From contig NC_091230.1 in NCBI RefSeq assembly GCF_040958095.1, positions 4,768,822 through 4,832,821 of the forward strand: DNA of 64,000 nt, in the 5' to 3' direction. The stretch's first letter is position 1; every line of letters begins with the position of its first letter. The position numbers and the translations under genes are program-made. Shown here piece by piece: positions 4,434 through 29,772 of the stretch. The DNA comes from Procambarus clarkii (lineage: Eukaryota; Arthropoda; Malacostraca; Decapoda; Cambaridae). The notes beneath the pieces were generated by a model. The model was given only the letters and a program-made list of their open reading frames with translations. It did no database searches and was not told the DNA's origin.

Positions 4434-6539
4434 CAACCCGTTCTCACACAAGACAGTACATATATGACTAGTGCTTAAAGTCAATATGTGGAATGTGATT
4501 TAGTACATATGTGATATATTCCCAGTTAACTTTTTTACCAAGGCTCAAACTCTTCCTCACGTACCAATTTACGTCTCACAGTACTCGTCCATCAACGTAG
4601 ATAGCTGAATAGTCGTGATTGGTTCAATTATAACGAAAATTGTAGTTTTCAGGTCCCACATGGGTTGTGAAATTCACCTACTATTGTCCATGCTCTTATA
4701 ATATTACAGATCAGCTACATCCTATTGAAGGCTCGTAGTTTTGTTTTAAGAAATATTAGTTGTTCTTAGTAAATTATAATAAGCACAATAAATTATTACA
4801 TAGAATAAGTGCTTCACCAATCAATATTATATACCATAGTTTGTGCTTTAGAAATCTTTAAAGAATGTTTTGTAGGAACGCTAACAGAAAACGATGTTAT
4901 GTTGGAATGTATATAGGGTAAACTACTGCAAACAGGATGGTATGGTGTGGATTATTGGAAACTATAGGATTAGTATAGGGTCCACTACCACCTGTTAGGT
5001 GGGTAAGGTGTCCAATAACACCCGCAGGATGAGTATGGGGGTCACATCCACCCACAGGAATGGTATGAGGATCACTTCCACCCACAGGAAGGGTATGGGA
5101 TCCAATACCATCCACTGGATGTGTATTGCGTCCACTACCACCGACAGGATGGGTATGGTCTCACAACCACCCACAGGATAGGTATGGGGTCCAATACCAC
5201 CCACAGGATGAGTATGGGGTCCACTATAACCCACAGGATGGGTATGGGGCTCCAACCACCCACAGAATAAGTATGGGGTACAATAACACCCACTGGATAT
5301 GTATGGTATCCATTGCCCCCACAGGATGACTATAGGGTACAGTATCGCCCACAGGATTAGTATATAGGGTTCACTGCCGCCCACAGAGTCGGTATGGGGT
5401 CCACCGCCACCCACAGGGTCGGTATGGGGTCCACTACCGCCCACTGGGTCGCTATGAAGTCAACTACCGTCCACAGGGTCGGTAGGGGTCCACTACCGCC
5501 CACAGGGTCGGCAGGGGGTCCACTGCCACCCACTGGGTCGGTAGGGGGTCCACTGCCGCCCACAGGATCGATAGGGGGTCCACTGCCGCCCACAGGGTCG
5601 ATATGGGGGGGGTCCACTACCGCCCACAGGATCGATAGGGGGTCCACTGCCGCCCAGAGGGTCGGTAGGGGGTCCACTGCCGCCCACACGTTCGGTAGGG
5701 GTCCACTGCCGCCCACAGGGTCGGTAGGGGGTCCACTGCCGCCCACAGGACCGATAGGGGGTCCACTGCCGCCCACAGGGTCGATAGGGGGTCCCTTACC
5801 GCCCACAGGGTCTCTATGAAGTCAACTACCGCCCATAGTGTTTGTATAGTGTCCACTATCGCCCATAGTGTTATTATGGGGTCCACTACCCCTCATAGGG
5901 TCGGTATGGGGGTCCATTACTACCCACAGGGTGTGTCTGGGGTCTATTTTGGCAATACTGCTTTTCCAATCTCATTTGTTGTTCAATGTAAAATATTTGT
6001 TGCTCGACTTGCAACAATTTATATATATATATATATAGTATAGTGCCTTTGCAATAATGTACCAATGTGTGTATTTTCATAACTCGTTTTAAATTGTTGA
6101 AAAATAAATAACTACATTGTGAATGCAAGTCAATGTTTACATGCTAAATCAGAGTTGCCAGATTCCGCTTAAAATAGCAAATTGTGCTTATTTTCAAAGC
6201 TTGAGAATTTAGCTTTAAAGTAGTTAAAAAACTACGAATTTCGCAATTTGCTATGTACTTTAGTGTACTATTTTAAAATAAGGTTGGTTTTTAAGCTGCA
6301 AGTCATATGAATCTCAAAAAAAGTATATTATTAACAATCTTATCTCCATAGTTCACTAGTTTCTGTAAATCAGATCTGGTAACTGTAGGCCAAGTACTGG
6401 TAGACTCAAGACACAATGTGTGTTGAAGCTATTCTCTTTGAAGAAGTCATCTCGACAGGATCTTCCAGCTCCAGCTATAAAACTTCACCAAACATGGATC
6501 TACCTAGTAAATCAAATGGTAAGGAATTACTAAACTGTA
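4434..6539 (+). repeat. Left terminal inverted repeat, 2,106 bp
   Basis: Begins CAACCCGTTCTCACACAAG. It is the reverse complement of 27667-29772 with no length change and about five substitutions (for example near 5176, 5307, 5431, 5752 and 6069). Contents in order: about 480 bp of AT-rich unique sequence, a 30-bp minisatellite (4915-5943), about 470 bp of AT-rich presumptive promoter and 5' UTR, the first coding exon (6416-6518), and the first 21 bp of intron 1. Similarity stops at AAACTGTA inside that intron. Confidence 0.93.
4915..5943 (+). repeat. Subterminal 30-bp minisatellite, left TIR
   Basis: About 34 head-to-tail units of roughly 30 bp. In the centre the consensus is close to GGTCCACTGCCGCCCACAGG plus a GTCGGTAGGG-type end. 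Outer units are more diverged (CCACAGGATGGGTATGG type). Open frames across it on both strands follow from a unit length divisible by three and are not genes. Subterminal repeat clusters are common binding platforms for large DNA transposases. That role here is inferred. Confidence 0.9.
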
Positions 6540-27790: not shown

Positions 27791-29772
27791 TGTGTCTTGA
27801 GTCTACCAGTACTTGGCCTACAGTTACCAGATCTGATTTACAGAAACTAGTGAACTATGGAGATAAGATTGTTAATAATATACTTTTTTTGAGATTCATA
27901 TGACTTGCAGCTTAAAAACCAATCTTATTTTAAAATAGTACACTAAAGTACATAGCAAATTGCGAAATTCGTAGTTTTTTAACTACTTTAAAGCTAAATT
28001 CTCAAGCTTTGAAAATAAGCACAATTTGCTATTTTAAGCGGAATCTGGCAACTCTGATTTAGCATGTAAACATTGACTTGCATTCACAATGTAGTTATTT
28101 ATTTTTCAACAATTTAAAACGAGTTATGAAAATACATACATTGGTACATTATTGCAAAGGCACTATACTATATATATATATATATAAATTGTTGCAAGTC
28201 GAGCAACAAATATTTTACATTGAACAACAAATGAGATTGGAAAAGCAGTATTGCCAAAATAGACCCCAGACACACCCTGTGGGTAGTAATGGACCCCCAT
28301 ACCGACCCTATGAGGGGTAGTGGACCCCATAATAACACTATGGGCGATAGTGGACACTATACAAACACTATGGGCGGTAGTTGACTTCATAGAGACCCTG
28401 TGGGCGGTAAGGGACCCCCTATCGACCCTGTGGGCGGCAGTGGACCCCCTATCGATCCTGTGGGCGGCAGTGGACCCCCTACCGACCCTGTGGGCGGCAG
28501 TGGACCCCTACCGAACGTGTGGGCGGCAGTGGACCCCCTACCGACCCTCTGGGCGGCAGTGGACCCCCTATCGATCCTGTGGGCGGTAGTGGACCCCCCC
28601 CATATCGACCCTGTGGGCGGCAGTGGACCCCCTATCGATCCTGTGGGCGGCAGTGGACCCCCTACCGACCCAGTGGGTGGCAGTGGACCCCCTGCCGACC
28701 CTGTGGGCGGTAGTGGACCCCTACCGACCCTGTGGACGGTAGTTGACTTCATAGCGACCCTGTGGGCGGTAGTGGACCCCATACCGACCCTGTGGGTGGC
28801 GGTGGACCCCATACCGACTCTGTGGGCGGCAGTGAACCCTATATACTAATCCTGTGGGCGATACTGTACCCTATAGTCATCCTGTGGGGGCAATGGATGC
28901 CATACATATCCAGTGGGTGTTATTGTACCCCATACTTATTCTGTGGGTGGTTGGAGCCCCATACCCATCCTGTGGGTTATAGTGGACCCCATACTCATCC
29001 TGTGGGTGGTATTGGACCCCATACCTATCCTGTGGGTGGTTGTGAGCCCATACCCATCCTGTCGGTGGTAGTGGACGCAATACACATCCAGTGGATGGTA
29101 TTGGATCCCATACCCTTCCTGTGGGTGGAAGTGATCCTCATACCATTCCTGTGGGTGGATGTGACCCCCATACTCATCCTGCGGGTGTTATTGGACACCT
29201 TACCCACCTAACAGGTGGTAGTGGACCCTATACTAATCCTATAGTTTCCAATAATCCACACCATACCATCCTGTTTGCAGTAGTTTACCCTATATACATT
29301 CCAACATAACATCGTTTTCTGTTAGCGTTCCTACAAAACATTCTTTAAAGATTTCTAAAGCACAAACTATGGTATATAATATTGATTGGTGAAGCACTTA
29401 TTCTATGTAATAATTTATTGTGCTTATTATAATTTACTAAGAACAACTAATATTTCTTAAAACAAAACTACGAGCCTTCAATAGGATGTAGCTGATCTGT
29501 AATATTATAAGAGCATGGACAATAGTAGGTGAATTTCACAACCCATGTGGGACCTGAAAACTACAATTTTCGTTATAATTGAACCAATCACGACTATTCA
29601 GCTATCTACGTTGATGGACGAGTACTGTGAGACGTAAATTGGTACGTGAGGAAGAGTTTGAGCCTTGGTAAAAAAGTTAACTGGGAATATATCACATATG
29701 TACTAAATCACATTCCACATATTGACTTTAAGCACTAGTCATATATGTACTGTCTTGTGTGAGAACGGGTTG
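27667..29772 (-). repeat. Right terminal inverted repeat, 2,106 bp
   Basis: Mirror copy of 4434-6539 (right coordinate = 34206 minus left coordinate throughout). It carries the transposase's presumptive promoter and first coding exon (27688-27790) and the inverted minisatellite at 28263-29291. Confidence 0.93.
28263..29291 (-). repeat. Subterminal 30-bp minisatellite, right TIR
   Basis: Reverse complement of 4915-5943 with the same unit order and only a few base changes. Unit number and variant order are conserved between the two ends, so the TIRs were copied or homogenised as a whole very recently. Confidence 0.9.

Follow-up and report, generated by a model that had tools for sequence, protein, structure and literature searches.

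The window, a stretch of 64,000 nucleotides from the crayfish Procambarus clarkii (contig NC_091230.1, positions 4,768,822 to 4,832,821), contains a DNA transposon of the KDZ superfamily that is complete in its ends and its coding frames. The element occupies positions 4434-29772 of the window (approximately 25 kb), is bounded by long terminal inverted repeats (TIRs) and an 8-bp direct duplication (TSD), and harbours the exon chain of a transposase gene and that of a second predicted gene, here called gene 2. The features are given below by window position and strand.

4426-4433, no strand: left TSD, CTTTTCCC, the same letters as 29773-29780
4434-6539, plus strand: left TIR, 2,106 bp, starting CAACCCGTTCTC, equal to the reverse complement of 27667-29772 apart from six mismatches
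4973-5944, plus strand: 30-bp repeat array of the left TIR, 32.3 copies by TRF, 32 of 32 consensus matches on the plus strand
6416-6518, plus strand: left copy of the shared exon 1, predicted first exon of gene 2, 34 codons plus 1 base, opening with ATG and ending at a phase-1 donor
7698-7903, plus strand: predicted exon 2 of gene 2, GT-AG, open, with a CxxC..CxxC zinc ribbon followed by a predicted helix
8723-8864, plus strand: predicted exon 3 of gene 2, GT-AG, open frame
9695-10044, plus strand: predicted exon 4 of gene 2 including the stop, GT-AG, open to the stop
10301-19300, no strand, limits estimated: central block with several nested host repeats and satellites, from tandem repeats and matches to repeats outside the element, part of it unassigned
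10385-10715, minus strand: five weaker internal matches to the 30-bp repeat, 4 to 6 mismatches in 21
19556-27790, minus strand: KDZ transposase gene, a chain of 17 exons, 935 aa, with Pfam matches to KDZ and CxC3 over cutoff
21860-23744, minus strand: exons 9-13 of the transposase, coding for the KDZ domain (aa 443-656), from the Pfam match mapped on the exons
23950-24439, minus strand: exons 7-8 of the transposase, coding for the CxC3 cysteine cluster (aa 293-395), mapped likewise
27667-29772, minus strand: right TIR, 2,106 bp, pairing with the left arm
27688-27790, minus strand: right copy of exon 1, first exon of the transposase, 0 mismatches against the left copy
28262-29173, minus strand: 30-bp repeat array of the right TIR, 30.3 copies by TRF, 32 of 32 consensus matches on the minus strand
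29773-29780, no strand: right TSD, CTTTTCCC, directly outside the right arm

Each arm measures 2,106 bp, and in inverted orientation the two align with no indels and six mismatches, at arm positions 726, 874, 1012, 1318, 1636 and 1850, leaving the outermost 725 and the innermost 256 bases without differences. An earlier note on this DNA had given the arms this same equal length, which holds, and an identity of about 99.8%, for which the measured value is 99.715%. The 8-bp duplication that it had reported on either side was found again, equal in 8/8 bases and abutting both arms; at the same offset, an 8-mer was shared at 2 of 38,645 window positions, the TSD position counted among them. Beyond the TIRs, the search for further similarity between the two sides yielded just a 71-bp (77%) and a 40-bp (80%) match, intronic in both genes and apparently a host repeat.

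From the outer to the inner end, each TIR consists of approximately 540 bp of single-copy DNA, the 30-bp repeat array, approximately 470 bp, exon 1 and 21 bp of intron. The TIR boundary thus falls in both arms 21 bp beyond the exon 1 donor, and the coding exons that the earlier note had placed within the TIRs are indeed there, as an exon 1 inside each arm. A promoter would be expected in the stretch of approximately 470 bp between the array and exon 1. When the consensus of the 30-bp repeat was matched with at most 6 mismatches in 21 allowed, 32 matches were detected in each arm, in one orientation per arm, together with 7 in the interior of the element and 3 outside it, the latter carrying 5 or 6 mismatches. 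In addition to the five interior matches listed above, the remaining two were located at 15106 (1 mismatch) and 21194 (4 mismatches). Five shufflings of the element interior gave 0, 0, 1, 0 and 0 matches. The array is likely to be a protein-binding region.

The predicted transposase gene has 16 introns, all of them GT-AG (16/16), with consistent phases and no in-frame stop, and codes for 935 aa plus the stop. The 17 exons and matching phases described before are thereby retained; the earlier note had given 931 codons for the frame. The protein matched the Pfam families KDZ (PF18758, aa 443-656, 98.5 bits against a cutoff of 26.6, E 5.7e-28) and CxC3 (PF18804, aa 293-395, 55.8 bits against a cutoff of 26.6, E 4.9e-15), which bears out the earlier assignment to the KDZ superfamily; two more Pfam matches were each under their own cutoff. 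Since the KDZ and CxC3 matches run across introns, they also test the splice model. The donor of the right exon 1 scored 9.6, the top of 16 candidate phase-1 first exons. Candidate motifs for the acidic catalytic triad are DGN at aa 448, QDIIC at aa 561 and GEEAE at aa 619, and the transposase may be catalytically active. No PDB chain matched the transposase at E up to 10, and so no solved relative was found. A Mutator transposase was absent from its Pfam matches at E up to 10, no SUMO-protease domain was matched by Pfam in the modelled 935-aa isoform, and the viral contigs scanned contained no KDZ sequences.

Gene 2, which is absent from the earlier note, comprises four predicted exons at 6416-10044 on the plus strand, codes for 266 aa and is convergent with the transposase gene. 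The donor of the left exon 1, also with a score of 9.6, ranked top of 22 candidate phase-1 first exons. The three introns are GT-AG, exon 1 is accepted at the same phase by gene 2 and by the transposase, and AATAAA signals are present 3′ of exon 4 at 10280 and 10290. The frame of exon 2 has no Met ahead of the zinc ribbon, so the start must come from an upstream exon. A possible alternative first exon lies beyond the TIR at 7127-7262, with a donor score of 5.7. Exon 1 contains a second ATG at 6494 and, if this were used, 8 residues rather than 34 would be common to both proteins. Intron 1 of gene 2 also contains a hairpin-like repeat at 6566-7128, with 166-nt arms that are 86% complementary and AT-rich microsatellites, which looks like a nested MITE.

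The gene 2 protein had zero matches in Pfam and nothing significant in NCBIfam (best E 0.15, far under the cutoff), and its sequence gave nothing significant against PDB (best E 1.4). A structure model of exon 2 was of low confidence (pLDDT 67.8, pTM 0.32) and matched no PDB entry at E 0.001. Among the best 50 of its 121 PDB matches at E up to 10, the best had an E of 0.51, and many were RanBP2/NZF-type zinc fingers, without significance. The viral and prokaryote contigs scanned contained no relative of gene 2, as would be anticipated for an element from an animal.

Statistical controls on the coding capacity of gene 2 were mixed. Exons 2-4 are free of stops over 231 codons in the predicted frame and contain 6 to 16 stops in each of the five other frames, and the codon score of gene 2 exceeded that of all 5,000 random background windows. 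The other frames of the same exons had almost equal codon scores, or a higher one on exon 2, where a stop-containing frame reached 0.258 against 0.186 for the coding frame; since competing frames score alike, the codon score of gene 2 mostly reflects composition. When exon chains were searched automatically from the exon 1 donor, the result agreed with the manual chain in the exact limits of 7698-7903 and 8723-8864 and in placing the following exon start at 9695, and differed from it in an extra exon (7158-7262) and another 3′ end. The automatic chain scored 95.3, and none of 100 dinucleotide shuffles exceeded 35.8. In real DNA, 10 of 15 controls were above 95.3, and these were mostly GC-richer, repeat-rich or retroelement DNA, whereas the four composition-matched controls scored 22.9, 28.3, 46.6 and 64.3 against 83.2 for the manual chain. 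Judged from these sequence features, gene 2 is likely to be a real gene.

The interior of the element carries host repeats, and part of the 25 kb is therefore nested DNA. Several stretches between approximately 8.4 and 18.5 kb are similar to repeats elsewhere, outside the element, and satellites are located at 12292-14292 and 16289-17370. A 139-bp satellite inside the element (12839-14264) has 10.3 copies at 100% identity, so it either expanded very recently or reflects the assembly. The repeats are reminiscent of those of decapod crustaceans. A reverse-transcriptase fragment was identified within intron 3 of gene 2 (RVT_1, 1.1e-7) and a weak one, under the cutoff, at 18571-18975 (RVT_1, E 0.0056). 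Two other interior fragments that had been taken as LINE pieces gave no match in Pfam.

Elsewhere in the window, a Gypsy-type pol ORF with RT, RNase H and integrase (Pfam) was found on the minus strand at 31725-34670. It sits amid parts (30159-31217 and 35514-36692) of an apparent tyrosine-recombinase retroelement at 30159-37582, whose recombinase is at 36575-37582 (Phage_integrase, 1.7e-6). The LTRs of the Gypsy element may be represented by two 172-bp direct repeats (31156-31327 and 35424-35595) that are 97% alike. It was considered that the KDZ element had been inserted in the reading frame of the adjoining retroelement; this was rejected, as the stretch obtained by joining the two flanks contained no frame that stays open through the junction. 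Strand-biased (G-rich) minisatellite DNA with many long, repetitive ORFs on both strands extends over 47200-59860, and a gag-like ORF at 62494-63540 combines a weak zinc knuckle with a SCAN domain (1.8e-15). A tRNA-Met was predicted by ARAGORN at 46051-46126, and Rfam at gathering cutoffs gave 0 matches in the whole window.

With two identical copies of exon 1 in the arms and two convergent chains of open exons continuing from them, we propose, at a probability of roughly 0.7, that the inverted ends of the element drive the expression of two convergent genes, both starting in the shared TIR exon. Each 2.1-kb TIR would then provide an inward promoter, the 30-bp array and a single coding exon with its start codon and splice donor. 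The exon of the right TIR would be spliced to 16 more exons to give the transposase, and the identical exon of the left TIR to three exons to give the 266-aa zinc-ribbon protein, so that the two proteins would have up to 34 N-terminal residues in common. The transposase would bind the ends, excise the element and reinsert it with an 8-bp duplication, in a cut-and-paste manner. The zinc-ribbon protein may be an accessory or regulatory factor, in a position comparable to that of mudrB in maize MuDR. The convergent transcripts could also pair with each other and invite silencing.

Against two genes stands the view, which we consider unlikely, that the transposase gene is the single real one, the TIR covering its exon 1 by chance or through gene conversion, and that the left chain is what remains of a gene, was captured from the host or belongs to a gene that starts with a different exon. 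It draws on the lack of a gene 2 homologue in Pfam, NCBIfam, PDB and the viral and prokaryote contigs, on coding statistics that are unspecific across base compositions and on the possible first exon outside the TIR. It leaves aside a frame that stays open over three exons, the GT-AG introns, the zinc-ribbon pattern, a chain that scored far higher than shuffled DNA and a phase of exon 1 that fits both genes. It is highly improbable that misassembly or a plain inverted duplication produced the arms. The copies are almost identical, as such an origin would have it, but the six mismatches are scattered, the repeats stop exactly at the 8-bp direct duplication, the flanks differ between the two sides and the transposase family has been described with 8-bp TSDs. 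The TSD, the mismatches and the differing flanks led us to reject the assembly artefact, which the earlier note had named as a way for its own proposal to fail.

The age of the element is a separate matter. The earlier note had concluded that it moved recently, and the near-identical TIRs are compatible with this; arms that exchange sequence by gene conversion would look no different, however, so the movement may or may not have been recent. There is a smaller but real chance that the element is old and now immobile, with gene conversion keeping the arms alike and the 99.7% identity being uninformative on the date of insertion. A distance of 21 kb separates the two long inverted TIRs and the interior contains nested repeats, both of which would suit an old element, whereas the open 935-codon transposase frame and the perfect TSD are compatible with a recent insertion without proving it.

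The platyfish Zisupton described by Bohne in 2012 reportedly has a length of 11 kb, one gene of 24 exons, subterminal inverted repeats of 99 bp and an 8-bp TSD. In the Zisupton branch, a SUMO-protease domain is present in an isoform. On these features, the Procambarus element resembles the platyfish element in belonging to the KDZ superfamily, in its many exons and in its 8-bp TSD, and differs from it in TIRs that are approximately 20 times longer, in the predicted convergent second gene and, for the isoform modelled here, in the lack of a SUMO-protease match. The superfamily features found here are the KDZ transposase core and the KDZ-associated cysteine cluster (CxC3). An 8-bp TSD has been reported for Zisupton and one Dileera element, and 7-bp TSDs without TIRs for Kyakuja in two Laccaria families (PMC12730594); the TSD CTTTTCCC is consistent with Zisupton, to which the earlier note had likened the element, and equally with Dileera, while the 8-bp TSD and 2.1-kb TIRs do not match the Kyakuja features. 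The Zisuptons of Pristionchus have 18 and 31 exons, with evidence for TIRs and no TSDs in the parts of that report used here (PMC9297572).

In Cryptococcus neoformans, KDZ1, KDZ2 and KDZ3 are approximately 9.2 to 11 kb long with TIRs of 139 to 241 bp, KDZ1 makes 8-bp TSDs and movement of KDZ1-3 has been observed (PMC12810828). These elements share with the present one a KDZ transposase, a CxC cysteine cluster and TIRs, and KDZ1 also the 8-bp TSD; they are smaller, with CxC1 and short TIRs, in contrast to CxC3, 25 kb and 2.1-kb TIRs here, and a second gene sharing a TIR exon is not mentioned for them in the consulted parts of the same source (PMC12810828). The earlier note had regarded the 25-kb size as distinguishing, which does not stand: KDZ elements of up to 30.3 kb with nested unrelated TEs in Ectocarpus and one of 31.7 kb that was seen to move in Chlamydomonas are in print (PMC12477816), so size is no mark of novelty, and the present interior consists in part of nested repeats. 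Compared on these features alone, the Procambarus element is like those giants in being large and in having nested unrelated TE insertions and additional genes, whereas their hosts are algae, unlike the present one. The terms 'Zisupton' and 'KDZ' are both absent from a review on giant transposons (PMC6431247).

Maize MuDR has two convergent genes, for the transposase and for a second protein of unknown function, with promoters in or just inside TIRs of approximately 215 bp (PMC3440606). The exon chains predicted here likewise converge from both TIRs, but the transposase families are unrelated by Pfam and the TIRs measure 2.1 kb against approximately 215 bp, and a coding exon common to both proteins is not mentioned for MuDR in the consulted parts of that account (PMC3440606). 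Within the portions of the literature covered by the search, a TIR exon common to two genes was not found in any KDZ element. This literature thus has precedents for KDZ elements that are large or carry accessory genes, and none was found in it for the long TIR with an exon that would serve two genes.

A further step can be offered tentatively, and is rather doubtful at present: the TIR may be a joint module for recognition, expression and coding, and the zinc-ribbon partner may be the KDZ counterpart of mudrB, needed for transposition or regulating it via the 30-bp array. In such a module, the ends are kept alike for transposition, and the start of both proteins would therefore be kept alike too.

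Among cut-and-paste transposons, KDZ elements belong to the larger ones, and the product of gene 2 is a candidate for an accessory protein in such a system. Should the TIR exon indeed serve both genes, the element would illustrate a way in which terminal repeats reach 2 kb and yet stay alike, since its TIRs would be, besides recognition sites, the coding and expression sequences of two proteins.
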